A stretch of 27,605 nucleotides of DNA, from positions 1 to 27,605 of IMG/VR virus record IMGVR_UViG_3300007346_000174. One strand, 5' to 3'. The DNA is from a virus. Of this stretch, positions 1-27,605 are shown piece by piece. A program made the translations under genes and the position numbers. Position 1 is the first letter of the stretch. Each line of letters opens with the position of its first letter. The notes below the pieces were generated by a model, which was given only the letters and a program-made list of their open reading frames with translations, was not told the DNA's origin and ran no database searches.

Positions 1-518
1 AAATACCTGCCAATCTATCTAAGAATGGCGTAGCGTATACAAAAGCAGGAGTTTCGCAATATACTCTTGATTCAAACCTTGCGAGTATTTTCCCTAAAGC
101 ACCCCTTATGTCTGATGGTTCTGGTCTAATCCCAGACCACATTACTATGCTTGACGGTCTTGACTTTATCGAAGACCATGTAAATACTCTCTCTGATAAA
201 GAGAAATGGGATGCTCTTGTATGTATAGTGATGGAAGTCGCACACATTGACCCAAGAGAAAGTGGTGGTTATATTCTAACTCTATCTGATTTAGATTTGA
301 CCTCTCTATCAGCCCCTCTCGACTTGTATGTATCGCAAGAAGAGGATTCTAAAGTTTCATTCGGTGTTGGTTCAGTTGTAGCCGTAGTCGGTTCTCCTTA
401 TGTGAATCGAGACGGAGACGGAAAATTAGCAACGACAGGTTGGTTCTGTGTTGAAGAAGTCGGTGTCCTTACGGACACTGACTCTTCTTCCCAGACTGAA
501 ATAGACGATTGGGAGTGA
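1..518 (+). CDS. C-terminal part of an acidic protein, possible OB-fold (5' end outside window)
   Basis: The reading frame is open from base 3 to the stop at 516-518, so the gene begins upstream of the window. The ATG at 108 lies in the middle of an unbroken frame and has no ribosome-binding site, so it is not taken as the start. The visible part is about 171 residues and acidic. Residues corresponding to 345-470 read as alternating beta strands with glycines (GVGSVVAVVG, then GWFCVEEVGVL). That could be an OB-fold like those in single-stranded DNA-binding or polymerase accessory proteins. The position directly before a recombinase-like ATPase, with a 4-nt gap, suits an SSB or RPA role. I do not recognise the family with certainty. 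The tail is Ser/Asp/Glu-rich, as in many SSB-type proteins. Confidence 0.55.
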   Translation, partial: IPANLSKNGVAYTKAGVSQYTLDSNLASIFPKAPLMSDGSGLIPDHITMLDGLDFIEDHVNTLSDKEKWDALVCIVMEVAHIDPRESGGYILTLSDLDLTSLSAPLDLYVSQEEDSKVSFGVGSVVAVVGSPYVNRDGDGKLATTGWFCVEEVGVLTDTDSSSQTEIDDWE

Positions 519-522
519 TACA

Positions 523-1470: not shown

Positions 1471-1681
1471 GCAGGTATTCCCGTCTCGCAAAAGACAGTG
1501 GCATTACGCAGTTGACATAGGGGTGACGGGTAAATCGTATTTACTGTGTAGAGGTGTAGACACTTTTGGTATCTACACATCAGAACAACCTACTGATAAA
1601 AACGGTGATTTGAAAGAGCGAGAGCCGTGTAAGATGTGTGCAAGAATGGCAGAAAAGCATCCTTATATCACGGTGGTTTAA
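1460..1681 (+). CDS. Small His/Cys protein, possible zinc site
   Basis: This 73-residue protein starts at the ATG at 1460, not the GTG at 1451: GGAG at 1448-1451 is about 8 nt before the ATG. The start overlaps the end of the ATPase gene by 11 nt. His15, Cys30, Cys57 and Cys60 (CKMC) are spaced as in small phage proteins that hold one zinc ion with one His and three Cys; this is a pattern match, not a named family. The N-terminus is basic (RKRQWHY). Function is unknown. Its place between the recombinase-like ATPase and the clamp suggests a role in DNA metabolism or as an adaptor. Confidence 0.75.
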   Translation: MKVRQVFPSRKRQWHYAVDIGVTGKSYLLCRGVDTFGIYTSEQPTDKNGDLKEREPCKMCARMAEKHPYITVV

Positions 1682-1684
1682 TAA
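1677..1684 (+). promoter_or_regulatory. TATA-like box before the sliding clamp gene
   Basis: TTTAATAA is centred about 28 nt before the ATG at 1708 and overlaps the stop codon of the preceding gene. The spacing matches the same element before other genes in this window. A ribosome-binding site (AGGAAGGTG) lies between box and ATG, so transcripts started further upstream could also be translated. Confidence 0.45.
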
Positions 1685-2520: not shown

Positions 2521-2882
2521 GCATAAATTTAGCAGATTGGGCAGAAGAACAACCTCTTCATAGGATTCAGAATATAGCAAGTAGGGGGATAAAACTCCCT
2601 GCTTCTGAAATAGAATGGACTATGAAGCATATGGGTTCTGTTATGTCTATCACTAAATTACACAGAAAAATAGTAGTTATGTATGCGGTTCTTAGAGATA
2701 TGGAAGTAGGACAGATTCTTACGGCAGAATATATTGCTAATCTTGCTAACGAATATTGTAGACCTAATGCGATAATACATACTCGTATGGTGTCAAGAAT
2801 CTTAATGCTTCTCGCAAAATGGGGCTACATACAGAGAATACCAATCAATTCAAATATCTATGAGTATAAGAGGATTAAATGA
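2517..2882 (+). CDS. Winged-helix DNA-binding protein
   Basis: This 121-residue protein overlaps the clamp stop by 4 nt (ATGA). Residues 55-118 read as a winged helix: a helix with VMYAVLRDM, a turn, ILTAEYIANLANEY as helix 2, a recognition-type helix MVSRILMLLAKWGYI, then a short wing ending YEYKRI. This layout is seen in archaeal and phage regulators and in C-terminal winged helices of replication initiators. The N-terminal 50 residues are mixed helical without a recognised motif. The position between clamp and methyltransferase suggests either an origin-binding accessory or an operon regulator. The specific function is not recognised. Confidence 0.7.
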   Translation: MSINLADWAEEQPLHRIQNIASRGIKLPASEIEWTMKHMGSVMSITKLHRKIVVMYAVLRDMEVGQILTAEYIANLANEYCRPNAIIHTRMVSRILMLLAKWGYIQRIPINSNIYEYKRIK

Positions 2883-3676
2883 TGCAACACGACATAATAT
2901 GTTCCGATTTCCTCAAAGCAGATTTGGGAGATAGAAAATTTAGGTCGTGTATAACTTCTCCCCCATACTACGGGATGAGAACCTATGGTGATGACTCTGA
3001 TGAGATAGGTAAAGGACAAACTCTCGATGAATATATAGGGAGTATGGTTGAAGTTTGTCGCAAAGTACGGGAACATCTAACTGACGATGGTACTTTATGG
3101 TTGAATGTGGGGGATTCATACAATGGTTCTGGCGGGGCTGGTTCTGATTACAAAGAAGGTGGTATCAAAGATTCTAAGAATAAATGGGGTGCGAGGAATG
3201 TTGGGGGTCTTGCTAAAAAGAATCTAATAGGTGTAGGTTGGAGGTTGGCTCTGGCTCTACAGGCTGACGGATGGATTCTGCGAAGTGAGATAATATGGAA
3301 TAAAAGCAAATCATATCCTCAACCGGAGGCTTATATCAAAAGACCTATACCTAAACACGAACAGATATTCATGCTAACAAAATCCCCAGACTATCACTAT
3401 AATGCGAATAATCTTTTCACCGTCTGGGATATGACCCCTGCTAACAACGGACACGAAGCACCCTTCCCACTTGAATTACCGATTAAATGTATTTTAGCAA
3501 GCACCGATGAGGATGATTGGGTCTTAGACCCCTTTGGTGGGTCTGGAACAACGGCAGTCGCTTGCGAATTATTAGGAAGAAACTCTACTATGGTAGAGTT
3601 ATATGCCGAATCTTGCGAGCGAATAAGAGCGAAACTTAAAGATATTCCAAACACAAATGCGCTGGAATGGGTATGA
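2879..3676 (+). CDS. Beta-class DNA methyltransferase (N4-cytosine or N6-adenine)
   Basis: This 265-residue protein transfers a methyl group from S-adenosylmethionine to an exocyclic amine in DNA. The catalytic motif IV is SPPY at residues 27-30. The SAM-binding motif I is DPFGGSG at 217-223. The order IV, target recognition region, I makes it beta class. SPPY is more often found in N4-cytosine enzymes, but N6-adenine enzymes also use it, so the target base is not decided. Residues 85-185 would be the recognition region (glycine-rich loop, then WNKSKSYPQPE). The gene overlaps its upstream neighbour by 4 nt. No restriction nuclease gene is adjacent, so it looks like an orphan viral methyltransferase, perhaps shielding the genome or marking it for regulation. 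Confidence 0.9.
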   Translation: MMQHDIICSDFLKADLGDRKFRSCITSPPYYGMRTYGDDSDEIGKGQTLDEYIGSMVEVCRKVREHLTDDGTLWLNVGDSYNGSGGAGSDYKEGGIKDSKNKWGARNVGGLAKKNLIGVGWRLALALQADGWILRSEIIWNKSKSYPQPEAYIKRPIPKHEQIFMLTKSPDYHYNANNLFTVWDMTPANNGHEAPFPLELPIKCILASTDEDDWVLDPFGGSGTTAVACELLGRNSTMVELYAESCERIRAKLKDIPNTNALEWV

Positions 3677-3892: not shown

Positions 3893-6121
3893 ATGATAGT
3901 AGAGAGAGGTAGAGGAAACTCCGTAAATGTATTTTACAGAGATGGAGAAGGCAATAGAAAAAAAGCCGTTCTCGGTAAGAATATGTTGCCTTACCTATAC
4001 ACTAAAGAAGGCGATAAGGATATAGGTATAGCGTGTAAGAAAGAAGGTGGTTACACAGGTCTCTATGGAGAAAAATTAATCAAACAGACCTTTTACGGTA
4101 CGGAGGATATGAGACAGATAGCAGATAGTATGCAGACATGGGAAAATAATATCAAATGGGAAAACAAGGTTCTTGCTGATAGCAATCAATTCTTTGATAA
4201 TTATGAGCATAGAGTCTGGTACATTGATATGGAATGGAAAATAGAATCTGGGGAGATTACAATAGTAGTGGTAAGAGATTCGCAGAAAGGTGAGTTTGTA
4301 TGGTTCACACATGCAGATTATGAGGCAGGGTATTACGATAGTATACCCTGCAAAGACCATCCATACGGAAACACCTCTTGCGACAAAGGGGATAGGAAAT
4401 TCAAATGTTGCTCAAATGAAAGAGAGATGTTGTTAGATGTTGCTAATCTTATGAAGGCTCATGACCCAGACATAATCACAGGTTGGAATGTAACTAACGC
4501 TGACTGTAAACAACTTCTGACTCGTATGAGACATAATAATATCAAAGCCGGTATACTATCCCCTATGAACAGAGTTAGGTGGCGTTTTGGTGATTGGGAA
4601 CAACCTATTGTAGGCAGAAATGTCATAGATTTAATGGTAGGTTTCAAGAAGTTATGGACTTTGAAGAACGGACAACTACCGGCTATGTCTCTTGACGCAG
4701 TTTCTAATCACTGTCTTGGCGAAGAAAAAGTACCTCTAAAAGACGGACACGATACTTATTATACTGATTTTGGTACTTATCTTGATTATGCGAGACAAGA
4801 TGTGGCGTTACTGCCAAAGTTAAATGATTTGGTAGATGTTCTCGGCTACTTTACTGCCCTCCAGCATATCGTTCAGTGCGATATTCGTTCAACCCCATTC
4901 ATCACTAAGATGTTTGCTATTCTCTGTATGAGAGATGAAGAGTTTGATTTGAAGATACCAAGCAAAGCGCAATTTGACAAAGTAGAATACGAAGGTGCGG
5001 ATATTATGACTCCTGTTGCTGGCGTGTATAACAACATAGGCATCTTTGATGTTAAGGCTATGTATCATAGTAATGTCAAAAAATACAATATCTGCTGGAC
5101 TACCCTAAGCGATAAAGGTAGTGATTGTGGCAACGGTACTCGTTTTGATATGTCTAAAAGCGGTCTTCTTGGTAGACAGATGGACTACATGACTAACTTG
5201 CGAAATGAATACAAAGCGAGAAAGGCGCAAGCCAAGACAGAAGAAGAGGCTAAGAGATATGACGCTCTGCAATACGCAACTAAGTCTTTGGTTGCCTCTA
5301 TGTATGGTGTAGCCGGTGACGCTAAGTTTGGTATGTACCACCCTAAAATCGCAGACGCAATTACATACACTTCGAGAAAGACTTTGGGTGAATTAAGAGA
5401 CCACGCAGAGGATTTAGGTTTCAAGGTCAGATACGGACATACCGACTCTATTATGTGCGAAGTACCTACGCCAGAAAAGGGTATAGAGGCTCTTAAGGTT
5501 ATCAACGAAAGAATGTCTCCTATAGTAACAGAGTTTGAAAAATGGTCTGAATCATTCCTTGTTATGGCTAAAAACCGCTACGCAGGTCTTGTTTCTTGGA
5601 CTGATGGGGAATATCATAAAGCAGAGAGGTATGTCAAAGGTATTGAGATGAAGCAAAGTAGGCTTCCAAAGGCTATGAAAAACGCTATGGGGATAGTCAT
5701 TGATAATATCTTGAAAGGCGTGAGTGAGAGGGAAACTACCGACTCTCTTGCTAATTTAATCGAAGATGTTGTTGCCGAGAAAATCCCCGTTGCAGATTTA
5801 ACTATCAAAGCAAAACTTAGCAACGATTTACATAAATATGCCGTATTATCTGAAGCCAGAGCAGGTGCTAAATGGGCTAATGATAATTTGGGTAAAGGTT
5901 ATCGCAAAGATGACTACTTCCTCTGCACTTTAGACGAGTATGGCGAATACATAGCCTTTGATGACCCATCTGAAATACAAGGTATTGCTAAAGTTGGATT
6001 CAAAGAATTAGCAAGAAAATTTGTATTGGAAAAAGTAATTCCCTATTACGAAGTTATGAATTGGGATTATATGCCTCTACAAAATTCCCTAAATGGTCTA
6101 TCTGATGTAGTTTGGTTGTGA
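3893..6121 (+). CDS. polB: Family B DNA polymerase with proofreading exonuclease
   Basis: This 742-residue replicative polymerase is close to the usual archaeal PolB length and has no intein. Exonuclease motifs: Exo I D112/E114 (YIDMEW), Exo II N199 to D204 (GWNVTNAD), Exo III Y299/D303 (YARQD). Polymerase motifs: A with D386 (FDVKAMYHSN), B with K464 to Y471-G472 (KSLVASMYG), C at 514-519 (YGHTDS), and a thumb KNRYAG box near residue 560. Motif C has His in place of the first Asp of DTD; the second Asp, the metal ligand, is D518. The C-terminus (NGLSDVVWL) resembles the clamp-binding tail of archaeal PolB. The start has no ribosome-binding site but a TATA box at -27, so it is probably leaderless. 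Both active sites appear intact. Confidence 0.95.
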   Translation: MIVERGRGNSVNVFYRDGEGNRKKAVLGKNMLPYLYTKEGDKDIGIACKKEGGYTGLYGEKLIKQTFYGTEDMRQIADSMQTWENNIKWENKVLADSNQFFDNYEHRVWYIDMEWKIESGEITIVVVRDSQKGEFVWFTHADYEAGYYDSIPCKDHPYGNTSCDKGDRKFKCCSNEREMLLDVANLMKAHDPDIITGWNVTNADCKQLLTRMRHNNIKAGILSPMNRVRWRFGDWEQPIVGRNVIDLMVGFKKLWTLKNGQLPAMSLDAVSNHCLGEEKVPLKDGHDTYYTDFGTYLDYARQDVALLPKLNDLVDVLGYFTALQHIVQCDIRSTPFITKMFAILCMRDEEFDLKIPSKAQFDKVEYEGADIMTPVAGVYNNIGIFDVKAMYHSNVKKYNICWTTLSDKGSDCGNGTRFDMSKSGLLGRQMDYMTNLRNEYKARKAQAKTEEEAKRYDALQYATKSLVASMYGVAGDAKFGMYHPKIADAITYTSRKTLGELRDHAEDLGFKVRYGHTDSIMCEVPTPEKGIEALKVINERMSPIVTEFEKWSESFLVMAKNRYAGLVSWTDGEYHKAERYVKGIEMKQSRLPKAMKNAMGIVIDNILKGVSERETTDSLANLIEDVVAEKIPVADLTIKAKLSNDLHKYAVLSEARAGAKWANDNLGKGYRKDDYFLCTLDEYGEYIAFDDPSEIQGIAKVGFKELARKFVLEKVIPYYEVMNWDYMPLQNSLNGLSDVVWL

Positions 6122-6157: not shown

Positions 6158-6454
6158 ATGGGCAGGGAAAGTAAGAAACCTACGATAAAACAGATTGACG
6201 AAAAGATGAGTATTATGGCTGGGAGGATTGACGGCTTCCTACATATGATTATGCAAGAATTGGAGAAGCATAACACTCTGATACTAAGAACACTACAACA
6301 TCTTGATTTGATTTCAGAAGATAAATGTCCTTCATGCTCTGGGTCAATCAGAGTACCACAATTTGAAGGTATTGAAAGACCAGACATATGTCCTTACTGC
6401 GAAGCCTCTCTTGATGATACAGAGCAGACTACTCTACCTTTAGAAGAGGAATGA
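6158..6454 (+). CDS. Coiled-coil zinc ribbon protein
   Basis: This 98-residue protein has two parts. Residues 10-52 are helical with heptad-like hydrophobics and may form a coiled coil or dimer. Residues 57-81 are a zinc ribbon with CPSC (57, 60) and CPYC (78, 81), which binds one zinc ion and often contacts nucleic acid or protein. The acidic tail is DDTEQTTLPLEEE. The gene overlaps the region before the nuclease gene and shares its promoter. Similar small zinc ribbons accompany replication or transcription genes in archaeal viruses. The exact role is not recognised. Confidence 0.75.
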   Translation: MGRESKKPTIKQIDEKMSIMAGRIDGFLHMIMQELEKHNTLILRTLQHLDLISEDKCPSCSGSIRVPQFEGIERPDICPYCEASLDDTEQTTLPLEEE

Positions 6455-6456
6455 TT

Positions 6457-7395
6457 ATGAAAGACCCAGCAGAAATGTCTGTTGAGGAGTTAGATGCTAA
6501 TAGCAGTTATGACCCTAACGACACCGACAAACTCCTAAGAATGTCGAAGTCTTCTTTCATAGGTTATGATGGTTGTCCTCGTAAATATTGGTGGTCGAGA
6601 GTCCAACTCAAGGACAGGAGATTGCCGGAGACAGAGGCTATGGCTCGTGGTAAGTATGTTCATACTAACTTAGAGACTCTATATGATAATTGGGAAGGAC
6701 AGTCTGTTCTTGGCCCACTAATCCCCGAAGACAGAGAAGACCCTGCTAATGAGGTAATCGCATTCTTAGAAGAATGTCGGATAGAAAGATGGGGTCTTGA
6801 AAAATTCAAACCCGTAGAATATGAGGTTAAGAGAGTAGTATGGGATGCTGAAAATGAAGTAGTGCTTGTAGGTCTAATTGATGGTATTCTTGAACACCCA
6901 GACGGCGGTCTATGTATATATGAATTGAAGACAGGTAATATGGCTAAAACTAAGTTTGACAAGACTCGCAAAGAGATGTGTTACTACACTCATATGCTAA
7001 AACTTATGGGGGAGACCAGACCTATAACCCACTTTGCCTATTTATCCCCAGACGCATTCAATCCAAAGTTTGTAGCAGAATTATGCAATTGGAAAAACGA
7101 TTGGGATGAGTGGGATGAAGACAGGGTTCTCTGTTGCGAAAAGGGTTGGCTCGATTCTAATTCCAAGAGAGAAGTAGCAATAGCAGAAGGGGCTAAAGGT
7201 TTCTTAGTAGTAGAGAAGGTTCACGGCGCAAGCCTCTCTTCTTTTAGCAAATCACTTAAAAAATGCGTAGGCGGTATCAAGGAACATCAGTGGGATATGA
7301 AATGGAATGATTATTTTTGTCCTCTGTGGTGTGATTTCTCAATGTCTTGCGAAAGTGAAAAGAATGGGCTTGAAAATTTATGGGAGGATTTGTAA
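6457..7395 (+). CDS. Cas4/AddB-like PD-(D/E)XK nuclease with four-cysteine iron-sulphur site
   Basis: This 312-residue protein looks like a RecB-family exonuclease. It carries the layout seen in Cas4 and AddB: first cysteine C40 (DGCPRKYWW), the RGxxxH box with H69, catalytic D142 (GLIDG), the ExK pair E156 and K158 (YELKTG), a YY segment in the QxxxY position near 176, and three late cysteines C288, C292 and C298 (CPLWCDFSMSC). The four cysteines should hold a 4Fe-4S cluster. I chose ATG 6457 because GAGG at 6446-6449 is 7 nt upstream of it; ATG 6451 would be too close. It likely processes DNA ends during viral recombination or replication. There is no CRISPR array or other cas gene. The tail NGLENLWEDL may be a clamp-binding motif. 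Confidence 0.85.
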   Translation: MKDPAEMSVEELDANSSYDPNDTDKLLRMSKSSFIGYDGCPRKYWWSRVQLKDRRLPETEAMARGKYVHTNLETLYDNWEGQSVLGPLIPEDREDPANEVIAFLEECRIERWGLEKFKPVEYEVKRVVWDAENEVVLVGLIDGILEHPDGGLCIYELKTGNMAKTKFDKTRKEMCYYTHMLKLMGETRPITHFAYLSPDAFNPKFVAELCNWKNDWDEWDEDRVLCCEKGWLDSNSKREVAIAEGAKGFLVVEKVHGASLSSFSKSLKKCVGGIKEHQWDMKWNDYFCPLWCDFSMSCESEKNGLENLWEDL

Positions 7396-7541
7396 TGATA
7401 TGTGATATGTGTGATGCTTTTATAGCAACAGATGGAGATTGGGCTACACCCGTAATGATGATTACCGGAGATATAGATACTGCTTCTGAAAGGTATCATA
7501 TCTGCAAGATGTGTGGTCATAGGCAGATTATTAAAGATTAA
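7395..7541 (+). CDS. 48-residue zinc ribbon protein
   Basis: The start ATG overlaps the nuclease stop by 1 nt (TAATG), and GGGAGG lies just upstream within the nuclease gene. Cysteines C3 and C6 (CDMC) and C37 and C40 (CKMC) form a minimal treble-clef or zinc-ribbon protein with a 30-residue insert, followed by a short basic tail. The tight coupling with the nuclease and the primase suggests an accessory or regulatory role in the same pathway. No named family is recognised. Confidence 0.75.
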   Translation: MICDMCDAFIATDGDWATPVMMITGDIDTASERYHICKMCGHRQIIKD

Positions 7542-7557
7542 AGTAGGGGGGAATATT

Positions 7558-8550
7558 ATGAGAGTTAAACTATCATTTCCCAGACAGATAGGTTTGAAGA
7601 GACAGAAATGCCCCGACTACGAGACCTTTACTTCCTATCTATCTAAACTAAATGGTATGAGTAATATCTACACGAGTCTGTATTCTTTCGATGATTTAGG
7701 TGATTATGATAGCGTAGTTATTGATAGAGCGTGGTGGGATTTTGATACTAACGAAGACTATGACATGGAGACAGTAAAAAACGATGTTGCTACTCTTCTT
7801 TCAAGACTCGAAGGCGAAGTTAGATTAGTAGCAACGGGTAGAGGCTTTCATATTCATCAGTTTTTCAAAAGACCTGTTAGAGGTAGACAGTGGGCTTTGC
7901 ATCTTGATAGATATGAGCGTAAGATGGCAGAAGGTCTTTCTTCGCTTGATGGGGTAGGTTATCCCGAAAAACTTACTCGTGTCTCTAATACTTACAATGT
8001 TACAAGGGGTCGCTGGTGTGTTGTAGTTGACCATAGAGGCTTCTCTAACGACCCTATGGGCTACGAAATACCAAATAGACCCCAACCTACCTTAGAGCAT
8101 TTAGACCCCTTTACAGGTCATTTTAACGCTGATTCTTGTTTTGATTTAGTAATGTGGAATAATGAGAATCCTTTTGTTGATAGAATACCAAGCACCCAGA
8201 GAGCAACTGTAAGAGTGGGGAACCATAACGGACAAGTGGCTTTGCCTACTTGTCTTGATAGAGCCATCAGAGTATCTAACCCACCCCATCATGTCCGTGT
8301 CGCTTTGGTTCAAGAGATGAGTAGACAATTAAGGTGGTATGCTGACCCAAGAGATTTATCGCAAGAAGAGAAGAATGAGATAGCAGAGAATATCTGTGAT
8401 TTTATTGAGGCTCTTGATTGGATTGACTACCATCCTAATATCACAAAAAAATATGTGGTTGGTATGCAAAACTACAGAAACGCCCCTTCACCATTTTGGT
8501 ATCGCAAACATAATCTCTGTGATGGAGTAGACTGCTGGTACTGTAGTTAA
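7558..8550 (+). CDS. Archaeo-eukaryotic primase with fused PriS-like and PriL-like domains
   Basis: This 330-residue primase would make the RNA or DNA primers used by the polymerase. In the N-terminal PriS-like part, D61 and D63 (WWDFDTN) are the metal-binding pair, TGRGFHIH at 93-100 matches the SxH nucleotide-binding motif, and D158 (CVVVD) matches the third catalytic Asp. The C-terminal part (about 225-330) resembles the iron-sulphur domain of the large subunit PriL: a first cysteine C232, the PPHHVRVAL helix, then C321, C326 and C329 close to the end. The ATG at 7558 is supported by the GGGGGG run 5-10 nt upstream; the GTG at 7513 lies inside the previous gene. Fused PriS-PriL chains are known in some archaea and mobile elements. 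The small size and C-terminal cysteine spacing are unusual. Confidence 0.85.
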   Translation: MRVKLSFPRQIGLKRQKCPDYETFTSYLSKLNGMSNIYTSLYSFDDLGDYDSVVIDRAWWDFDTNEDYDMETVKNDVATLLSRLEGEVRLVATGRGFHIHQFFKRPVRGRQWALHLDRYERKMAEGLSSLDGVGYPEKLTRVSNTYNVTRGRWCVVVDHRGFSNDPMGYEIPNRPQPTLEHLDPFTGHFNADSCFDLVMWNNENPFVDRIPSTQRATVRVGNHNGQVALPTCLDRAIRVSNPPHHVRVALVQEMSRQLRWYADPRDLSQEEKNEIAENICDFIEALDWIDYHPNITKKYVVGMQNYRNAPSPFWYRKHNLCDGVDCWYCS

Positions 8551-8554: not shown

Positions 8555-8568
8555 GACAAAGTTTTGTC
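8555..8568. promoter_or_regulatory. Palindrome GACAAA-GT-TTTGTC, possible operator
   Basis: A 6-bp perfect inverted repeat with a 2-bp centre lies between the weak TATA-like box and the start of the XPF-type nuclease gene. Bound protein there would block initiation. It could also form a small hairpin, but the loop would be too tight. An operator is inference only. Confidence 0.35.
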
Positions 8569-8575
8569 TTATAAC

Positions 8576-9283
8576 ATGATATACGCAGACGATAGGGAAA
8601 ACGAAAAACTTCTGCATAAATTGTTTCTTGCTTGCGGTAATCGCAAAATAGACCCAAAGGGGGAGGTGATGGTAAAAAGACTACCTCATGGAGACTATAT
8701 CTTAGGTGAATGGGTAATAGAGGCTAAAGAGATAAATGATTTGTATCGTAGTATCTTGGGTATAGGTAGGAATGGTAGGACAATCAATCATCAACTCCAC
8801 GAATTATCTGAATCTTGCGATACTCCTTTCCTCGCTATTTATGGAACACAACTAAAACCGTATTTTAAAGGAAGGAAGGCTAAAGCCCATGAAATATCAA
8901 GGGAAATAGCAAAGATGAATAGAGTAATCAAATCTTTCAAAATGACAGTGTATTCACACTTTCCTAAAATAAGGGTTATTCAATTCACTACTATGGATGA
9001 ATTTGTTGAATGGCTTGCTATTTCGCATCTCAAAAAACAAATGACTTCGAGTCTGAAATTAAATAAGAAAATTAAGAGTTTGCCTACCGACCCAAGACTT
9101 CTGGCTCTGATGGGAATACAAGGAATCAGTCAAGATATAGCAGAAAGACTATTGGAACAATACGGTTCTATTCCTAATTTGCTAAAGACAAAGGTTAGAC
9201 AGAAAGACCTTATGAAAATAAAGGGAGTCGGTAGAGTCTTAGCAAAGAGAATAAAGGATTTAAGAAAGGAATGGAAACCTTAA
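8576..9283 (+). CDS. XPF/Hef-family structure-specific endonuclease
   Basis: This 235-residue protein combines an ERCC4 nuclease domain with two helix-hairpin-helix motifs. XPF-type enzymes cut branched DNA such as flaps and stalled forks. The nuclease motif is G39-D40 with VIEAKEINDL at 47-56; the usual ERK core is EAK here, and the acidic residues and lysine (E49, K51, D55) are kept. An early DDREN at 5-9 matches the conserved Asp/Arg segment. The C-terminus holds two helix-hairpin-helix motifs (MGIQGISQDIAERLL and IKGVGRVLAKRI) for DNA binding and dimerisation. There is no helicase domain, so it resembles crenarchaeal XPF or viral versions. I chose ATG 8576; the TTG at 8564 adds four residues only. 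It is the last gene of the plus-strand module. Confidence 0.88.
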   Translation: MIYADDRENEKLLHKLFLACGNRKIDPKGEVMVKRLPHGDYILGEWVIEAKEINDLYRSILGIGRNGRTINHQLHELSESCDTPFLAIYGTQLKPYFKGRKAKAHEISREIAKMNRVIKSFKMTVYSHFPKIRVIQFTTMDEFVEWLAISHLKKQMTSSLKLNKKIKSLPTDPRLLALMGIQGISQDIAERLLEQYGSIPNLLKTKVRQKDLMKIKGVGRVLAKRIKDLRKEWKP

Positions 9284-9392: not shown

Positions 9393-12300
9393 TCAATATC
9401 CTCTAAAGGTATCACTTTGCGCTATTGTCGGGTTGTTGTACCTTCTTACATTAACTGATACATTGTGTATAACAAGTGATTGATACCCTGCATTATCATT
9501 ACCCTGCGCCGGTTTTCTTTCAAAGGTTACTGTGAGAGTATTGTTAGCAGTAGAAGCACCATCTAAGAATGTAGTTGGGAGAAGTATTACATTTGAGTTG
9601 TTTGAGCCTTGCGATATTATCTTTGTATTAGATATAGAAGAACCCGTTTCGCTACAAGTTACGGTAGTTGTCAATTCTGCATTTCCGCCACCTGAGACGC
9701 TTTCCAGAGATACACTCGCAAGGACAGATACATATCCTGTGCTTGCATCATTCGGAACCCTTACATTCATGCTATGCGAATGTGTTTCTCCCTGCGCCCC
9801 TGCTTCTGGGTCGGAGATACCGGCTAATGTGAAACCTTCTGATGTTGCTATTGCAGAACCAGACGAAGACATGGCACTATCAAGACCATCAATCGCCCTA
9901 TCGAAAGACGATGCTTTACCTGTAGTTTTACTACCTAATACTCCCCATGTTGCGTTTGACGATGCTCTATCGGATGCAAAGTCAGCACGACCTTTCAGAC
10001 CTCTACTTAGACTCTTTGCCATACTATTAGATGATAGACCTGCAAATTGTGATTGTTCATCTCTTACATTAGAAGAAGTTGATAACTGTTGTAAACCGCC
10101 TACACTACTACCCAAACCTCCTCCGAAAGGCGGTCTTGCTGGGCCAACGGGAGAAGGTGGGTTTCCGGGTCTTGGGGTGTTTTGTGGGTTATTGCGTTTA
10201 AACGCTCTTGTGAAATCGTAGTTGTAGTGACTCTCAACCTTTTCTAACTTTAGATTTACCTTTTCATGTGAGTTTCCACTTTGTTGCCATATAATATCTC
10301 TTATTACCATAGTCTCACTGTCTAAATCAATATAATCGTCAGTGTATGTCAAAGTTGTTGCTGGGATGTAATTCAAATCGTCAACTATATGCAGTCTCGG
10401 TGCGTAAAATGCGGCTCTTTCATCTCCATGTGCGCCCATAATATCGAATCTTCTCATACCGAGAGGAAAGCAACTGTCATCATCAAAGGTGGAATAGGTT
10501 GTATCTCCATCTACATTGTGAGCGTTTTTCATTTTATTATTACCTCTAAATCGCAAAACATCCCGAAGATAATCAATATCTACTGAAAATAATACTTTAT
10601 GTGTTCCAGAAGTGTAAGACGCAGGTAGAGTTATTTCAAAATAACCATTACCGTCAATCTCCACGCTTGCAGAGCCTTGTAAAGTAGAAGTTAATAGGGG
10701 AGGTCGTTCATTACCGACACCACCGCTTGTATCAACTACTTCATCGAAAGAGTAATCTAATGCGAATAATCTAAAGTTTGCTACATCAAAAGTAGCCCCA
10801 GAATCATAAGCAATAGCAAGTCTTATCTCATTACCCGTTGATTCACTAACTTTAGGTGTGTTTTTATCAATGTGGACTACTTGTACGGCATTTGTTAAAC
10901 TGTTTGTACCATACCAAAAATAAGCAGAATCGGTTCTCCTGTGCGCTCTATTGTAATAAGTAAAGGCATTTACAGTGCCAGCAACTGTTCCATCTATTTT
11001 GTAAACCGATAGACTGTAAGTAGTGCCACCTATGGTATGTGTTAAAGTATACCATGTATTATTGCTATTCATAACAACCTGTGGGCCATATGTTCCACTA
11101 TTATCGTAAGACCATTCATAGGTAGGGGGAGAAGAGGTAACTATTCTAATCAGACCCCCAGAGGCTAAACTTGCGCCAGCCGTAATACTACCTAAACCTG
11201 TATCATCGTCAGATACAATACCTAATCTCAATTGGTTATCCGTAGCCCAATCTTCCGCCGATGAACCATTATGAGTTGTAGCATACACTATACCTGTTGA
11301 AATATCTGTATCAGAAGTATAAGCATCAGTGTCTAAAGCATTTTGTATACCAAAGAAAGGTTGACCTCCTAAGTTATTACTCCACCAAGATAAACTGAAT
11401 CTATTGTCATAAGTTAGGTTTCTTGATACATCTGATACATAACCAAACCTACCACCACTTGTCATTAAGTTTGATTCACCTGTATCTCTAATTACTTCTG
11501 CATCTACGCTAATTCTTGATGTGTTTTCTCTAAGATATTCTTGTTTTGCGATACTTAGTGCTTCTTCTCTATTGAATATATCTGGATAATTTAAAACTCT
11601 CCACCTTAAATCACTACCAGAAGGAGTTGGGTAGTCTGCGAAAGCAGAGTTTCCATTGTAGTAAACTCTTACATTTGTAATTTTACCTCCGGTTTGTGTT
11701 GCTAAGTTTGATGATTTTAAATTATTTCTTGTGAAAGAGTGATTGCTTGAGTAAGACTCTCTGAAATCTAATCTGTTATCTCTTCCTATCAACCAAGAAA
11801 ATGTCTTTAGATTTCCAGATAAACCATTACCTTCTTTTTCTTTCATATCATTTAGAAGATTCATAATAGTCTGCCCTCTTGCATCGTGAACAGAACCAAA
11901 GTTGTCAGAGTCTAACTCATTGGTTTTAGGGATGTTTGCTATATCTGAAATACACGGTAAAGAAGAATTTGAAGACCAATTATCTGTGAGAATCATTGAT
12001 TGCATATATCTCATTTTATCAGACGCAAAGTATGTTCCAGAGTTAGGTGCTTTTACCAGACCTGTTAAATTTAACACAAGTCTAAAAGAAAACAAAGCGG
12101 CTGGAGAGTTAAATACTCTAACTTTATCAAAATTACCTTCAACATTTTCAGTTAAAAACTCATTACTACCTATTTTTACATCACTTCCAGACGACCCAGC
12201 AGTTTCATCAACTTTCAATTGGTCTATAACATTCTTAGGCCCCGTAACTATTTCATATTCTGTTATGAAGACACCTTCTAAAGAATCACCTACCCTACCT

Positions 12301-16454: not shown

Positions 16455-19400
16455 ATTGGAACACCTTGCGCTCTTAACTCTGCTGTCACTCCTTGTGTCA
16501 CTTGCTCAACCATCTCTGGTAGCGTCATTCCATTAAAGTTGTTAGTCTGTATCAACTCTACTTTATGCAAAAGGCTTTCTACTCCGCCTTGTGTGATTTG
16601 TTTGTAAATAGCACCTGTGAAGTTTGACCTCTCTCCAAAGAATAATTCTTCTCTTGCATTCGCAAACTCATTCTGTTGTTGAGTTAAAGTATCATAAAAT
16701 TGCTTATGAGAATCTGCTAAATCGTCTTGACCATCTTTTTCAACTTTCAAAAGACTTTCATAATATTCTTTTGTAAACTCATCTCCGTCTGCAAAGTAAG
16801 CGTTTCTAATGCTTGCCAACTCTTTATTGTAAACCTTTTGAGCCTCATTAAGTGCTTCATTTCCATCAGCAAACTCGCTGAAAATATCTTCATAATATCC
16901 TTCAAAAGAAGCAACTTCTTTTAAGGCCCCTTCTGGTGTAACATAACCTACTGTATATACTTCTCCATACTTAACTTCCATACCTGCAATTCTTTTTGTA
17001 AGTTCTTTTTCTGTAAGAACCAAACTATCTAACATTTGTTGACCCATATCAAAATCTGCATTACTAAGAAAATCTTGCGCTTCGGTAATAGCACTCACTT
17101 GTTGTTCGACAACTGACAACTTTGATATTTGGTCTTCGTAAGCGTTAGCAGTAGCAACATCTCCTCTTTTTACTGCTGCTTCATGAGCCTGTTCAAATCG
17201 TAATCTTCTTGTATGAATATCGTCTAAAGTCTGTTGTGCTAATTCAGCATTTTGCTTTAAGTCGTTGAAAGACATATCAAAGACTCCTGTCAACACCGCT
17301 TCTTGCCCTGCCGTACCAGATAATTCTGCTAAAATCGCAGAAGTCCTATTTAATTCATCATTGAGACCTCCTAAATTATCAAGGTCGCTATTGAAATTGT
17401 CACCAAAAATACTGTCAAATAATTCAAAACCAAGATAAGCACCTAATGTTACAAGTGCGCCTGTTATGGCAGTAAGACCACCCGTAGACATATGTAGAGC
17501 CATTCCCATACTCTTTATACCCTTAGTCATTTTGATAATAGCGGGAATTGCTTGACTTAACATCATTAAACTCATAGTATACATAGTAGCACTCATTTGT
17601 TTACTACCGTCTACAATCATAGGGAAGAGTAAAGAGAATCCCATCAAAGTCTTTTGTGTGGTTTTTAAATACATATTTCCTTCTATCATAGCAGCATGAG
17701 AAGCCTTCATGCTCTGCGTAAAGGACATTGTAGAAGCACCTGCCTTTTTCTGTGCTACTGCTAATTGCTCATCTGCCGTAATGACTTGAGTTATTGCTAT
17801 TCTTTCTTGATTTAAAGTCATTATATTTTCTCTTGTTTTTGCTATTTTTTCATCAATAGCAACTGTTGTCTTTCCTTTTGATAATAACTCTGCCCTTTCT
17901 GTTTGAAGAACCATTAGACGATGCCTTGCTTCTTCTTGAAGAGATAATAAATCTGCTTGTCTGGTAGTTAATCTCTTAAGTGTCTTAGAGTCTAATTGTT
18001 CTGATAACACCACTTCATTTGCCATAGCATTTGCGTGTGCAGTAAGAGATTGGTTTATTTTTTCTTGTAGACCAAGACTTTGAAACATTGTTGTTATGCT
18101 TCTTTTGTCTATTACTTCTCTTGTGGCTTTAGTAGCAATAAGTTGCTGACTTATTTGTTTTTCAAATATAAGGTCGTTATTAGCGATTCTTTGATTTGTC
18201 ATAGATTGACCTCTCAAAGCAATATTCTTCTGTAGTTGATTTCCTTGACTTCTTAAAGCACCAGAAAGTTTTCTTAATGCTTTTTCTGCTTCTCCAGCCG
18301 ACTGTGCTTCCTGTAAAGCAAGGAGAGCATCTTCCTTCTTTGCTCTTATATTCCTTATTTTTTCTTCCAAAGCCCCTCTTTCTGCCTGTCTTTTTCTAAC
18401 TAAAGCATTCGCAGATGATAAAACAGATTGTTGTTCTCTGTTAAGAGCAGTAGCACTTCTGAAAGTAGTCAATATACCTTTTTCATTCGCAAGATTTTCT
18501 AATGTTCTTGCGTCATACAATTTCTTGTATTCCATAGCCTCTATTCTTGTTTTATTGATTGCATCCGGTCTTGATGCTTGGTATGCTTTGAATGCAACTG
18601 TAATACCTACAACTCTAAGGGCTAATTCTGCCAGAGGTTGAATTAATTGTTGATAAGCGTTTGAGGCTGCTATTACATTACCTGCTACCTTATCCATACC
18701 GGGAATTTCAAGAACCGCTTTTGCACCCTTTAAGAATGTCTCTTGCGCTCTATATGAAGTCATATATGCTTCTGCTAAATCCTCCCCTATCGCTACCTTC
18801 ATGTCATTTATCTTTGCTTCCATTTGCGTTGCTTGGAAAACGGCAGATTTTGTTTTATTTTCAAACTCTTCAATAGCGGGATAAAGTGTGTTGAAAGCAT
18901 CAGTTTGCATCTGTGTTAGACGATGTTGATTTTCCATTATCTTTAGGAATTTGATATAGTGACGGGAACCAGCAATACTTACTGCTAATGCTCTTTTTTC
19001 CTCTGCCGACATAGCATTATAGGCTGGAGTTATTCTTTCTATTACATCAGTTAATTTTAATTGCGCTACTCCTTGAGCATCAAGACCCGGAATTAATTCA
19101 GCAATAGCCTTTGTTGCTTCGTTATTTGCATTTCCGAGACGCTGATAAATCATACGCAGACCTGTTCCCGCCCTGCTTACTTCTTCACCTGTTTCAAGTA
19201 GCAAAGCAGACATAGCGGCCATATCACCAATTGACTCACCTGCAATATCCGCTTGACTTGCGAATTGGTTAAGAACGAATGTAATATCTTCCATTGTAGC
19301 AACAGAAGTATTTTCAATTGTGTTAAGTTGGTTTAGGGCGTGTATTGATGCTTCTCTTACAAGATTAGCCTGTTGCTCTGCCGTTAAGTTATCATATTGG

Positions 19401-19909
19401 GCTTGAGTAAGACCGCCCATAAGGAATTGAGTTTGTTGTGCTAAAGCAATAAAACGATTCATACCTAATTCGGTTTCCATTTCACCGACTTGAGCCATCA
19501 ATAGACCCTGTCTTGTAGCCTCAATAACTGCAAGTTGGGAACCCAATACTGCCTTTAACTGCGCCGTTCTTGCTGCAGCGGCTAAAGATTCAGCACCTGT
19601 AAATGCGAAAGCGTGACCCATTTCTTGTGCTGCTTCTGCGAATGCTCTAACTTCGCCTTCTCCGGCGTTATAGAATTTACGAACCCTTACAAATTGTTCT
19701 TCAAATTCAAAAAATGCCGCCGTAACACTATTTACGGCATCAATTATGTAAGATGTGCTTTCTGAAAAAGTGTCAGCGATACTACTTATTGTATCAAGAA
19801 CAATCGCTTCTTGGACTACCATAGCGGCACGAGTATCACCAAGTAACTTCTCCGACTGTAATTGTCCTATTACATCGAAAAATACTCGTGCTGCACCTGC
19901 TTTTGCCAT
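16451..19909 (-). CDS. Tail tape measure protein
   Basis: This 1152-residue protein sets tail length and scaffolds tube assembly. Residues 60-430 match the N-terminal region of phage tape measure families (LAAAARTAQLKAVLGS, MAAMSALLLETGEEVSRAGT, TGLRMIYQRLGNANNEATKA, LAVSIAGSRHY). Residues about 460-750 are a long charged helical stretch with repeats of Gln, Lys and Glu. Residues about 755-835 are strongly hydrophobic with several possible membrane segments, as is common for proteins that may enter the host membrane during DNA entry. The rest is again helical. It directly follows the chaperone frames and overlaps the tail-tip gene by 4 nt. At about 0.15 nm per residue the tail would be near 170 nm; that figure is an inference. 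GGTGAT upstream of ATG 19909 supports the start. Confidence 0.93.
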   Translation of the reverse strand: MAKAGAARVFFDVIGQLQSEKLLGDTRAAMVVQEAIVLDTISSIADTFSESTSYIIDAVNSVTAAFFEFEEQFVRVRKFYNAGEGEVRAFAEAAQEMGHAFAFTGAESLAAAARTAQLKAVLGSQLAVIEATRQGLLMAQVGEMETELGMNRFIALAQQTQFLMGGLTQAQYDNLTAEQQANLVREASIHALNQLNTIENTSVATMEDITFVLNQFASQADIAGESIGDMAAMSALLLETGEEVSRAGTGLRMIYQRLGNANNEATKAIAELIPGLDAQGVAQLKLTDVIERITPAYNAMSAEEKRALAVSIAGSRHYIKFLKIMENQHRLTQMQTDAFNTLYPAIEEFENKTKSAVFQATQMEAKINDMKVAIGEDLAEAYMTSYRAQETFLKGAKAVLEIPGMDKVAGNVIAASNAYQQLIQPLAELALRVVGITVAFKAYQASRPDAINKTRIEAMEYKKLYDARTLENLANEKGILTTFRSATALNREQQSVLSSANALVRKRQAERGALEEKIRNIRAKKEDALLALQEAQSAGEAEKALRKLSGALRSQGNQLQKNIALRGQSMTNQRIANNDLIFEKQISQQLIATKATREVIDKRSITTMFQSLGLQEKINQSLTAHANAMANEVVLSEQLDSKTLKRLTTRQADLLSLQEEARHRLMVLQTERAELLSKGKTTVAIDEKIAKTRENIMTLNQERIAITQVITADEQLAVAQKKAGASTMSFTQSMKASHAAMIEGNMYLKTTQKTLMGFSLLFPMIVDGSKQMSATMYTMSLMMLSQAIPAIIKMTKGIKSMGMALHMSTGGLTAITGALVTLGAYLGFELFDSIFGDNFNSDLDNLGGLNDELNRTSAILAELSGTAGQEAVLTGVFDMSFNDLKQNAELAQQTLDDIHTRRLRFEQAHEAAVKRGDVATANAYEDQISKLSVVEQQVSAITEAQDFLSNADFDMGQQMLDSLVLTEKELTKRIAGMEVKYGEVYTVGYVTPEGALKEVASFEGYYEDIFSEFADGNEALNEAQKVYNKELASIRNAYFADGDEFTKEYYESLLKVEKDGQDDLADSHKQFYDTLTQQQNEFANAREELFFGERSNFTGAIYKQITQGGVESLLHKVELIQTNNFNGMTLPEMVEQVTQGVTAELRAQGVPI

Positions 19910-20824: not shown

Positions 20825-21877
20825 TCACGCATCCAAGTCAAGTGTAGATAAAGCAGAGTCTGTGCTTTCAAAAGCAACTTTTACGGTGGAAGTAGCAGTT
20901 AAATCATACAGAGCATGGAACTTTACAGTCATTGTCTGTGAATCTCTACCGCTTACTGATGTTTCTGGCATTTCATAATGTAAATTAAAGAAATCAAATC
21001 TAATAAAGTTTGTAGCACTGTCTTCAAACAAAACAGATAGCGCAGGTGTGCTACTGCCCGGATAGACTTCTGCCGCACCATTAGCAGATGTAGCACCCAT
21101 CATTTCAGCGTAAGTTATAGCATCGTCAAGACCTGTGTCTCCGCTTTCTGTCATTTTGTGGAAAGTAATCGAACCGCTTACTTCACGAGTAGTCACAGGT
21201 GGCTTTCTTGCTACACTGTTTGAACCAAGAGCGTAAGTATTGTCTATATCGTGGTTATTTTTAATTTCAAAATCAATACTCTGAACCATTGAAGAAAATG
21301 CAGATGATGTTGCTGCTTCTTCAAAGTTTACATAAGTCTTTGCGAAATGCAAAGCATCTCCTGTATAAGTTGGAACATCGGTTCCTAAACTACCAGCCTC
21401 TGCGGTCTGGGTTGAACCAATAGTAGCAAATGAAATCATAGCGTATTCTCCGACAGAAGCAGATACTGACATTGATTCCATAACTTGACCCGGAAATAGT
21501 GCCTCTCCATCGTCACGACCAATGCGGAATGTGTAAGAAGGTAATTCAGTAACACTTGTAATTGCTGGTTCTGCGATTATACCTGTTGTTGGCCCTGCTG
21601 ATTCAAAGACAGTAGGGTTGTCTCCAAATAGACCGTGAATACACATCATTGTGAAGTGGCAAGGTTGAAGGACTTGTGACCAACCTCCAGAGGAGGAGAT
21701 TTTGCCCATAACTGCTTGTCTACTATTCCAATAATTCATGTCGCTTCTTTTGTTTACATCAAAAGTCTGACCAAAGGTTTCTGATTCAACTTCGCCTACT
21801 GCGTCTGTAGGAACCGCAGTAGCATATGTGGTTTCTTTACCAATGGCTAAATACCTATGAACATTACTTAATGCCAT
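20825..21877 (-). CDS. Major tail tube protein
   Basis: This 350-residue protein is probably the subunit of the tail tube. The N-terminus (RYLAIGKETTYATAV) matches the opening of many siphophage tube proteins. The middle has tube-like beta strands (PSYTFRIGRDDGEALFPGQV, MESMSVSASVGEYAMISFAT, VSGSITFHKM), and near the C-terminus SQTMTVKFHALYD resembles a last tube strand. Residues 235-300 may form an outward domain. No sheath gene is nearby, consistent with a non-contractile tail. The start ATG lacks a Shine-Dalgarno sequence but has TTTATTA centred 27 nt upstream, so it may be made from its own leaderless mRNA, as expected for an abundant virion protein. Confidence 0.85.
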   Translation of the reverse strand: MALSNVHRYLAIGKETTYATAVPTDAVGEVESETFGQTFDVNKRSDMNYWNSRQAVMGKISSSGGWSQVLQPCHFTMMCIHGLFGDNPTVFESAGPTTGIIAEPAITSVTELPSYTFRIGRDDGEALFPGQVMESMSVSASVGEYAMISFATIGSTQTAEAGSLGTDVPTYTGDALHFAKTYVNFEEAATSSAFSSMVQSIDFEIKNNHDIDNTYALGSNSVARKPPVTTREVSGSITFHKMTESGDTGLDDAITYAEMMGATSANGAAEVYPGSSTPALSVLFEDSATNFIRFDFFNLHYEMPETSVSGRDSQTMTVKFHALYDLTATSTVKVAFESTDSALSTLDLDA

Positions 21878-25033: not shown

Positions 25034-25201
25034 TTACTCACTCCTTAAAGATTCTATGTGTTCAGCCGTAGGACAAGGGCATATATCCGTAGGCCATAAA
25101 TCTAAAATTAAATACATTCCGTTACCGTCATCGTGTAAGACATTTCCTTCTTTTAACACTTGATAATAGTGTTGTTCCAATACTTCATAATAAGTTTTCA
25201 T
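25034..25201 (-). CDS. 55-residue protein of unknown function
   Basis: The ATG at 25201 overlaps the stop of the fibre-like gene by 4 nt (ATGA). The product contains a helical start (YYEVLEQHYYQVLKEG), a strand (MYLILDLWPTD) and CPCP near residue 41. It is acidic at both ends. The stop lies just before the ATG of the coiled-coil membrane protein, with AAGGAG inside its last codons serving that gene. No family is recognised; translational coupling supports it. Confidence 0.6.
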   Translation of the reverse strand: MKTYYEVLEQHYYQVLKEGNVLHDDGNGMYLILDLWPTDICPCPTAEHIESLRSE

Positions 25202-27605
25202 GCTATTTTCACCATTTCCATTATTGTTGCGGGGTTATTACTTGCACCACCGGACTTTAATTTAAATTGAGTGCCGCTTGCATTATGGTCAACTATCTTA
25301 TACTTATTTTCTAAAGTATCTCCATTTGCTAAAGTTACAATATAACTACTATAAAAATGAGTATCAGCCCAAAAACCGTTTATCTGCGCCCTACCAAAAC
25401 CTACCATAGTTGAAGTATTTTTATACGCTAATAACTGTAAAGTATATTTATTACCACTTACTTCACCTATGGGATTAGTTGAGGCAGGGCCAAATTGATA
25501 CTGAACTCTAACCATATATGTTCCAGCAGTTGAAGCAGTAGCAGTAAATACTCCACTTGAAAAACCTGTTAATGTTCCTGTTCTTGTAAAGTTTGTTGTG
25601 TCATCTGTAAGAAACAAATGGTCTGTTGCTTCGGCTTTATTATCATAATCAGTAGTGGATTTCCATACTCCGTAAGTGCCGGTAGCATCTGTTTCAACAT
25701 AATCAACATTAGGAGTTGCGCCTACTAAATCTCCATTAGAGTCTGATTTAATTAAAGAGGAAACAACACCTTGTCTAACTGTGCCGGATATTCTTGCTGA
25801 ACCATCAACCGCTAAACCACCTGTTGTAGCAAGTCCTCCGCCATCATTAGCATCAACAAAACCTGTTTCTTCTATGTCTAAAGTTTTACCAACGGCCATA
25901 CTTGTAGCAAAGTCAACATATCCTCCACTAACATATCCAAGAAGTGCGTCATGACCCGAAGTATCAGAATCAGCAAGCATTGTTCCAAGCAAAGTCCAAC
26001 CATTACCTGTTCCTAAATTAAACATCATATGTAAATCAATATCATTTGACGCATTAGAAATGTAAATCTGCAAAGCCGCCCCATCATAAGTAGCACCTTC
26101 TTTAATTCTAAAGTCTGTGAAAGCAATCGCATTTCCATATCCCGATACACCTAACAAATTAATAAAGTTTGAACCATTAGCCCCAAACTGATGTCCTACC
26201 TCTATCCTACAAGTTCTATGCCTCGATGACCTTTTATCTTGAATGTAAAATTGAGCCTGTCCTCTTTGACCACTACTGCCGACTAAATCTCTTCCTTTAA
26301 TTACTGCAAAAGTCCACCAGCCCGTAGCATAATCTAAAGATAAACTTTCTCTTTGTAATATAGTTGTGTTACTTGTATAACTACCGCTACCTGTTCTTTC
26401 CATTAAACCATTAGCAGAAAAATCAGAATCCATAATTGCACCTGCGGAAGCAACATTAGTAGCATCGGTTACATCTGCACCATCTTCAACATTAATATGA
26501 CTTCTAAGAGTCGGTGCATCCACGCCAAGAGCGATAGTGCCACTTGTTGTAATAGGAGAACCGGAGTCAACTTCAATACCATCTGAACCCGATACTGCTA
26601 CGCTTGTGACTGTTCCGCTACCGCCACCGCCACCGCTACTTATGTCTGTTGTTCCAATTTTTAATTTGTTTGAATCTGTGCTATCAAGCCAAAGAGTATT
26701 AGCAGTCACATTACCGGGATTAGCAGAAACAGGAGTTAATTCAAGACCTGTTGGGTCAATAAGACCCCCTACTGTTAATTTACCTGTAATATCAAAATCG
26801 CCTGTAAAATTACCATCAACCGCATTAATTGTATTAGGAACATCATTTGTTCTACCAATATTACTTACAATGATTTTTACATTTGAACCAGAAATGTCTG
26901 CTATATGACCTACATTTTGAATAAGATGTGTTGCACTTGTAGGTCTTGTAATTGTTAAATTACCTGCCGTTGTTGGAGACACATAAAGAGTTTTACCTAC
27001 ATCTGTAGGGTCGGTAAGAGTATCATCAATAATACTACTACTTACTGTAATTAAACCATTAACACAAGCATATCCAGAAGCACTTCCGGCTATTTGTTCA
27101 AGAACAAGACCTATAGAAGCCATAGTGCTTTCAGAATCGGCTTGTGCTGGTGATACGGCAGGATGAGTACCTTCTCCAGAAACATATACTGCTTGTCCTT
27201 TAGAAATAGTTGATGCCGTATCATTTTCTATTTGTATTATAATATGTGACTTTAATTTACCAACCTCAAGTAATTCATTCGCAGAATCATAATTAAAATT
27301 AACACTACTTGATAATTGATTTGGTTGAGAACCAAATAAAACATTACCTTCTGCTACTGATTTAATTCCTGTTCCACCATCTGCTACCCCAAGAGTTTCA
27401 CCTGTTTTAGGATATACATAGATACCGTCAGCAACGGGAATAAAGCCCCATGTGCCTCTTATAGTAGGTCTATTGATTAAAAGAATAGCACACCCTATTG
27501 AATCACTACCTCCCTTCAAAGAAGCCCCTGTATTGATAGTTAAATCGTTTAATTGTAATCTTGTTGCTTGTGTTATTTTAGCCCAAGCACCAGCACCATC
27601 AACAG
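25198..27605 (-). CDS. Fibre-like virion protein with C1q-like tip (5' end outside window)
   Basis: The frame stays open to the right edge of the window, so the gene begins outside; the TTG at 27519 is internal. At least 802 residues are visible. It is rich in Gly, Ser, Thr and Asn with fibre motifs: GVADGGTGIKSVAEGNVLFG, a run of five glycines followed by SGTVTSVAVSGSDGIEVD, and GKLTVGGLIDPTG repeats. The last 130 residues (GVFTATASTAGTYMVRVQY, GNKYTLQLLAYKN, ATIMEMVKIA) look like a C1q/TNF-type jellyroll that would bind host surfaces. It is placed upstream of head-tail connectors rather than after the tail-tip gene, so it may be a head fibre or decoration protein. Low cysteine and long beta repeats fit a trimeric fibre. 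Confidence 0.75.
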   Translation of the reverse strand, partial: VDGAGAWAKITQATRLQLNDLTINTGASLKGGSDSIGCAILLINRPTIRGTWGFIPVADGIYVYPKTGETLGVADGGTGIKSVAEGNVLFGSQPNQLSSSVNFNYDSANELLEVGKLKSHIIIQIENDTASTISKGQAVYVSGEGTHPAVSPAQADSESTMASIGLVLEQIAGSASGYACVNGLITVSSSIIDDTLTDPTDVGKTLYVSPTTAGNLTITRPTSATHLIQNVGHIADISGSNVKIIVSNIGRTNDVPNTINAVDGNFTGDFDITGKLTVGGLIDPTGLELTPVSANPGNVTANTLWLDSTDSNKLKIGTTDISSGGGGGSGTVTSVAVSGSDGIEVDSGSPITTSGTIALGVDAPTLRSHINVEDGADVTDATNVASAGAIMDSDFSANGLMERTGSGSYTSNTTILQRESLSLDYATGWWTFAVIKGRDLVGSSGQRGQAQFYIQDKRSSRHRTCRIEVGHQFGANGSNFINLLGVSGYGNAIAFTDFRIKEGATYDGAALQIYISNASNDIDLHMMFNLGTGNGWTLLGTMLADSDTSGHDALLGYVSGGYVDFATSMAVGKTLDIEETGFVDANDGGGLATTGGLAVDGSARISGTVRQGVVSSLIKSDSNGDLVGATPNVDYVETDATGTYGVWKSTTDYDNKAEATDHLFLTDDTTNFTRTGTLTGFSSGVFTATASTAGTYMVRVQYQFGPASTNPIGEVSGNKYTLQLLAYKNTSTMVGFGRAQINGFWADTHFYSSYIVTLANGDTLENKYKIVDHNASGTQFKLKSGGASNNPATIMEMVKIA

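Follow-up and report, generated by a model that had tools for sequence, protein, structure and literature searches.

The DNA analysed here is a stretch of 27,605 bases (hereafter referred to as the window) from an IMG/VR virus record (IMGVR_UViG_3300007346_000174), with a G+C content (GC) of 38.5%. It comes from a tailed virus that has a genome of about 64 kb and probably infects an archaeon, and the lineage to which this virus belongs has very probably been purged, by selection, of many sites for the Type II restriction enzymes of its hosts. The tetramers GATC, CTAG, AGCT and ACGT, reported as missing by the first-pass annotation from a count by eye, had no copy in a computed count of all 27,605 bases, and were the only four of the 256 tetramers at zero. 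The order-0 Markov expectation was 96.7 for each of these words; the order-1 expectations were 97 (GATC), 105 (CTAG), 120 (AGCT) and 55.5 (ACGT), and the order-2 model, proposed in the annotation as a check on palindromic tetramers, predicted 93, 95, 87 and 38 copies, respectively. The absence is not an effect of composition, as the annotation had argued: in 100 shuffles in which synonymous codons were permuted within the genome, preserving both protein and codon usage, mean counts remained between 54 and 110 (GATC 79, CTAG 84, AGCT 110, ACGT 54), and the absence was never reproduced, the minima being 61, 67, 81 and 42, respectively. CGCG was nearly gone, with a single copy (position 24178) versus 17 expected under the order-1 model and a codon-shuffle mean of 18. 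The further statement that CATG, GTAC, TCGA and TGCA occur freely was not sustained, as all four lay below their codon-shuffle minimum: GTAC had 22 copies (mean 89, minimum 70), TCGA 28 (mean 69, minimum 50), CATG 50 (mean 78, minimum 58) and TGCA 81 (mean 131, minimum 105).

Relatives were sought with the window's DNA polymerase, tail-block protein and methyltransferase (listed below) as queries. A capsid alignment identified 287 relatives in the viral collection, and the best 80, with a GC of 37% to 59%, were fetched; words were counted on the whole contig for 24 of these loci and on the piece alone for 56, some loci being near-duplicates. For loci with at least 15 expected copies, a word was classed as absent at ≤10% of expectation and as present at ≥40%, and loci at 10-40% were dropped. 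The absence recurred in these related viruses: AGCT was absent from all 80, and GATC from 78 of the 79 classed, the exception being L094 (18 copies versus 32 expected). In this 10.7-kb locus, GATC was spread along the sequence and AGCT was still at zero. CCWGG was absent from 42 of 42 classed loci, with one intermediate contig (G026, 20 copies versus 65 expected) dropped, and ATCGAT was at zero in all 26 contigs of a word matrix (2-22 expected). Other words varied from relative to relative: ACGT was absent from 41 of 76 loci, CTAG from 36 of 62, GTAC from 34 of 70 and TCGA from 11 of 72, after the dropping of 1, 4, 9 and 7 loci, respectively. ACGT and CTAG were mostly two-state. On a quick capsid tree, the minimum number of state changes was 9 for ACGT, 6 for CTAG, 11 for GTAC and 4 for TCGA.

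Six contigs of 47-64 kb (G003, G004, G007, G008, G012 and G013) were compared. One of them, G004 (54.2 kb), gave a 100% match to the window in the polymerase, tail-block protein and methyltransferase, and extends it on both sides. Across 39,654 aligned coding bases, G003 and G004 share 87.4% identity. The 37 GTAC of G004 corresponded to no GTAC at the aligned places in G003, and 27 of them differed without protein change; the control words CATG, TGCA, AATT, TTAA and TCGA were retained at 52-68% from G004 to G003. Likewise, none of 220 CTAG in G008 was retained in G004 (106 differing without protein change), versus 42 of 158 CATG and 70 of 206 AATT. The sites differ, often silently, in both pairs; any direction of change within a pair is an inference. 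The 71-kb contig G026 had seven GATC versus 204 expected, all lying within 45.8-50.1 kb (G026:45807-50082, L179), next to the terminase, and blastn (E 1e-5) found no counterpart of its 43.0-50.7 kb region in any of the 25 other contigs. It is as if this GATC-bearing stretch were a recent gain, only partly purged.

Depletion extended well beyond tetramers. Motif discovery, with each accepted motif (≤8% of expectation) masked before the next test, identified 25 depleted motifs in the window, 34 in G004, 35 in G003, 43 in G007, 44 in G008, 38 in G012, 44 in G013 and 38 in G009, of which 17, 24, 23, 25, 25, 23, 27 and 22, respectively, matched listed enzyme sites. The procedure is greedy and can merge words (GAKMTC is to be read as mainly GATATC), so the names and numbers are approximate. 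The motifs of the six longer contigs included 5- and 6-base, degenerate and asymmetric types, and no motif was obtained from either of two codon-shuffled genomes. Nine hand-picked control viruses yielded 2-30 motifs: lambda 2, P-SSP7 (counted without its last 206 bases) 6, the Helicobacter pylori phage KHP30 7, AG-345-P14 8, T7 14, a Nodularia phage 15, P-HM1 17, HTVC010P 18 and HRTV-25 30, with AG-345-P14, the Nodularia phage, P-HM1 and HRTV-25 represented by 50,000-base parts of longer records. In terms of the 614 recognition sites of the Biopython enzyme list, 54-83 of the 474-525 testable per contig were at zero in each of the six contigs, these sites overlapping one another (e.g. every GATC-containing site).

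The missing words resembled enzyme targets in their detail. The degenerate sets GDGCHC, GTYRAC, GGYRCC, CMGCKG, GRCGYC and CTRYAG were each called exactly in at least one contig. ACTGG, GCAATG (CATTGC) and GCAGTG (CACTGC), which are asymmetric, numbered 0-3 in each of the six contigs; GTATCC (GGATAC) was at zero in four of them. Once words containing GATC, AGCT, ACGT, CTAG, GTAC or CGCG had been excluded, 3-10 of the 4-17 depleted asymmetric 5-mers per contig were on the enzyme list (Fisher P values of 1.1e-2 to 1.7e-7), as were 15-26 of the 39-85 depleted asymmetric 6-mers (1.8e-4 to 6.1e-9), in six of six contigs in both cases, these P values being optimistic because the words overlap. Depletion was also specific to flanking bases: G008 has 197 GTAC, yet no AGTACT, TGTACA or GGTACC, and none of the 46 GTAC of G004 had A or T on both flanks or formed GGTACC. 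In the six contigs, many palindromic and some asymmetric sites were at zero, and most of the long asymmetric sites, of the Type IIG kind, were near expectation. In some contigs, CTGAAG and CAGAG run counter to any focus of the depletion on orthodox Type II sites: CAGAG was at zero in G012 and G013 (82 and 70 expected) and over-represented in G003 (195 versus 99), G004 (163 versus 101), G007 (181 versus 117) and G008 (159 versus 109).

T7 reportedly escapes Type III restriction by strand bias. Among the ten top-ranking words of each of 15 contigs, none had a strong one-strand pattern once the large number of words tested was allowed for, the largest z being 5.4. Some words were skewed between strands, with z values of 3.1-4.3: CAGGAC (34/0 in G021 and 41/2 in G016), CGGTAG (0/26 in G021), AGTTG (3/36 in G026) and GGGCAA (29/3 in G026). 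TTGCAA, at zero in 17 of the 26 matrix contigs, was over-represented 3.2-3.7 times in the whole contigs G019 (185 versus 53 expected), G021 (213 versus 57) and G022 (177 versus 56), which comprise loci L156-L158 and L163-L169. A role for TTGCAA as a signal was considered but not favoured, as no longer conserved context was seen apart from an A/T preference two bases outside the word. Other over-represented words, such as TCGCAA and TAGCAA, are one-letter neighbours of purged words; given these neighbours and the lack of conserved context, the excess of these words is probably an overflow from the purging of other words.

The features of the window are as follows.
1 to 27,605, no strand: the whole window, without GATC, CTAG, AGCT and ACGT, with CGCG once, GTAC 22 times and 25 depleted motifs (counts and motif discovery).
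2879 to 3676, plus strand: DNA methyltransferase, N6_N4_Mtase (PF01555, E 7.5e-40; PADLOC Type II methyltransferase model, E 3.2e-63).
3893 to 6121, plus strand: family B DNA polymerase (PF00136).
6451 to 7395, plus strand: PD-(D/E)XK nuclease with a weak Cas4 match (family match and PADLOC).
8564 to 9283, plus strand: ERCC4 and helix-hairpin-helix nuclease, closest to the model for the Hef nuclease but scoring under its cut-off.
9393 to 16454, minus strand: very large tail-block protein of 2353 amino acids, conserved among relatives, with no PHROG match.
16451 to 19909, minus strand: tail tape-measure protein (PHROG matches).
20825 to 21877, minus strand: conserved protein encoded close to the tape measure, with no PHROG match; it served as a query in the search for relatives.

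The tape-measure gene is a gene of tailed viruses (Caudoviricetes), and the relative G008 has a terminase above its cut-off and a portal below its cut-off. Direct terminal repeats in G008 (105 bases), G016 (123 bases) and G017 (119 bases) suggest that these contigs are complete genomes, of 64-71 kb. No transfer RNA genes were found in the window or in 21 loci from six contigs analysed with it. G008 also carries a DNA-repair gene, at L034:7345-7908, for a pyrimidine dimer DNA glycosylase (PF03013, E 3.9e-9). PF01555 was matched in 13 of 14 near-group records; in the wider set, 13 of the 26 contigs had a match. The methyltransferase of the window is possibly a second anti-restriction device, and the viral PF01555 enzymes may protect some retained site; the structure model of the window protein was too poor for use (mean predicted local distance difference test score of 38.9). 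An additional C5 DNA methyltransferase was present in four of the 26 contigs, G003, G004 (G004:14261-15448, L027), G014 and G020, and no retained word tracking its presence was seen when the 26-contig word matrix was judged by eye. The first-pass annotation had offered selection tied to methylation as another cause of the missing words, a link that was not borne out, with no match to the Dam-type methyltransferase family in the 26 contigs.

The absence of these words is best explained by the loss of sites subject to restriction in the host, as the annotation had suggested, but its limitation to four 4-base words was too narrow, given the 25 motifs of the window and the 34-44 of the six longer contigs. 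Word specificity, the codon-preserving null, the sharing of the absence with relatives, word-by-word change and the bias towards known recognition sequences all support this explanation. Site-carrying virus DNA would be cut on entry into a host with the matching enzyme, and mutations destroying sites, many of them protein-silent, would be retained until few or no sites were left. The purged set would depend on the enzymes that a sublineage meets, so that words would change state between relatives because their sublineages meet different enzymes, and GATC, AGCT and CCWGG would have been purged almost everywhere in the lineage.

It is improbable that the missing words reflect restriction-type nucleases of the virus's own, which would destroy the DNA of the host or of competitors while the virus was spared for want of their sites. 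Chloroviruses encode nucleases and show such self-sparing site loss, and nucleases are present here: the PD-(D/E)XK protein of the window and a conserved viral HNH endonuclease (L034:10005-10541 in G008; phrog_5200, E 1.6e-37) with homologues in six other contigs (G003, G004, G007, G009, G012 and G013). The absence of AGCT from all 80 relatives would suit one conserved viral enzyme, and the HNH endonuclease is a candidate enzyme if a universally missing word such as AGCT reflects self-avoidance. However, a virus-encoded nuclease would account for one or two words at most, and nucleases for about 40 specificities would be implausible in a 64-kb genome. A PADLOC scan of 10 proteins matched only the methyltransferase and the Cas4-like nuclease, and named no restriction endonuclease. 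We consider it very unlikely that the virus follows the composition of host genomes lacking the same words, or that a DNA-repair or methylation effect of the host is responsible: the absence of GATC and AGCT is common to relatives with a GC of 37% to 59%, and exact zeros would be hard for mimicry to reach. Words also change state between relatives of like composition, which argues equally against a general anti-palindrome bias, or a mutational or codon effect apart from restriction. The most strongly depleted words are indeed mostly palindromes, but such a bias is extremely unlikely to be the cause, because the codon-preserving null still predicts 54-110 copies, eight of the 16 palindromic tetramers are absent from no classed locus, and the asymmetric words ACTGG, GCAATG and CCTGA are also lost. 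Every relative found is a metagenome-derived IMG/VR contig, as would be expected if library preparation or assembly had removed site-bearing DNA; this is scarcely credible, given that the words are missing along the length of contigs of as much as 71.7 kb, which come from different metagenome records, that orthologous proteins are encoded without them and that the missing words differ by record.

Several observations weigh against the purging of host restriction sites. GTAC, CGCG, TCGA and GCTCC are not two-state, having many intermediate loci, and GGCC, GCGC, CATG, TGCA, AATT, TTAA, TATA and ATAT are each absent from none of 64-80 classed loci, even though enzymes exist for several of these eight palindromes. 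The enzyme list used does not include CGTCC and ACAGC, which some members of the lineage have lost, and most of the depleted asymmetric 6-mers are unlisted, although many contain a depleted 5-mer. Were the 204 expected GATC spread evenly over G026, its GATC-bearing stretch would hold more of them than it does. The number of motifs is approximate, coming from lists built by greedy merging, and the breadth of depletion is not unique, as the known haloarchaeal virus HRTV-25 reaches 30 motifs. Finally, no host was found, and hence no host enzyme.

Searches of the genome collection with a terminase alignment (four sequences) and a 24-sequence capsid alignment identified no relative. An archaeal host is nevertheless likely, because, among 14 control genomes, the ERCC4 family matched only four, every one an archaeon, and because the polymerase matches of widest coverage were haloarchaeal. 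ERCC4 family matches were obtained in 15 of 25 relative contigs; of those with no such match, at least G007, G008, G012 and G013 hold a homologue of the window's ERCC4 gene. In tblastn searches of phage records, the polymerase matched 1588, all at <60% identity, with the widest coverage for haloarchaeal tailed viruses, at 22-23% identity. Other counts are neutral or point away from archaea: the polymerase B family, found in 23 of 25 relative contigs, also matches Escherichia coli; most of the 1588 polymerase-matched records are bacterial, many of them T4-like; the terminase matched 134 phage records, the best being a human faecal record and most others cyanophages and other bacterial phages; and most of the 2556 records matched by the clamp loader are bacterial phages, haloarchaeal ones also occurring among the best 15. 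The capsid protein had no tblastn match (E 0.01) in 50,697 phage records, HRTV-25 among them, and neither did the protein at 7513-8550 nor that at L037:355-1593 of G008 at the same threshold; the ERCC4 protein had none at E 1e-5. The replication genes suggest an archaeon, short of proof. The contigs are presumably marine, judging by their record numbers, and any assignment of the host to the Poseidoniales would be guesswork.

A bolder reading, to which we give rather less than even odds, is that the missing words are a readable negative of the combined restriction repertoire of uncultured hosts, with some 40 active specificities per virus lineage, including unlisted words such as CGTCC and ACAGC, gained and lost within the family. 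If this is true, the enzymes of a host, its range and any switch of host could be predicted from virus genomes, with no need for a host genome. Restriction-site loss has long been known, but discussion has mostly centred on one site or a few, whereas tens of motifs per genome are concerned here. A protein tree allows the state changes of each word to be counted, which makes it possible to measure from metagenomes how restriction pressure is gained and released, and yields predictions, open to test, of the restriction specificities of hosts that have never been grown.

The loss of Type II sites is described as widespread in double-stranded DNA viruses, mostly affecting orthodox Type II sites, with complete or almost complete elimination in about one-tenth of viral genomes, by Rusinov et al. 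(2018, PMC6286503), and this fits restriction escape in the present lineage. The viruses of that study have known hosts, whereas the present lineage is uncultured, dozens of sites per genome are gone together and the set varies by relative. According to the same study, Type III sites are very rarely avoided and CAGAG, a Type III site, is one of two named exceptions; here, some members of the lineage have none and others an excess. Liu et al. (2021, PMC8651126) report that GATC is lacking from those haloarchaeal tailed viruses that have no Dam-type methyltransferase, and the absence of GATC together with that of Dam-type matches in the 26 contigs agrees with this rule. These viruses resemble the present lineage in being tailed and in having archaeal-type replication genes, and HRTV-25 (50,000 of 61,934 bases) reached its 30 depleted motifs under the present procedure; they differ in that HRTV-25 gave no tblastn match to the capsid protein, and the present relatives have a GC of 37-59%. 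The viruses of Poseidoniales (magroviruses and Satyavativiridae, PMC13108676) are likewise tailed double-stranded DNA viruses of tens of kb from marine archaea, a likeness by description only. Among open papers, surveyed by titles and the openings of abstracts, no description of this lineage or of such a broad purge was found. The strategy of site loss is a known one, and what is new is its breadth, the near-universal core of GATC, AGCT and CCWGG, and word-by-word change within an uncultured lineage.

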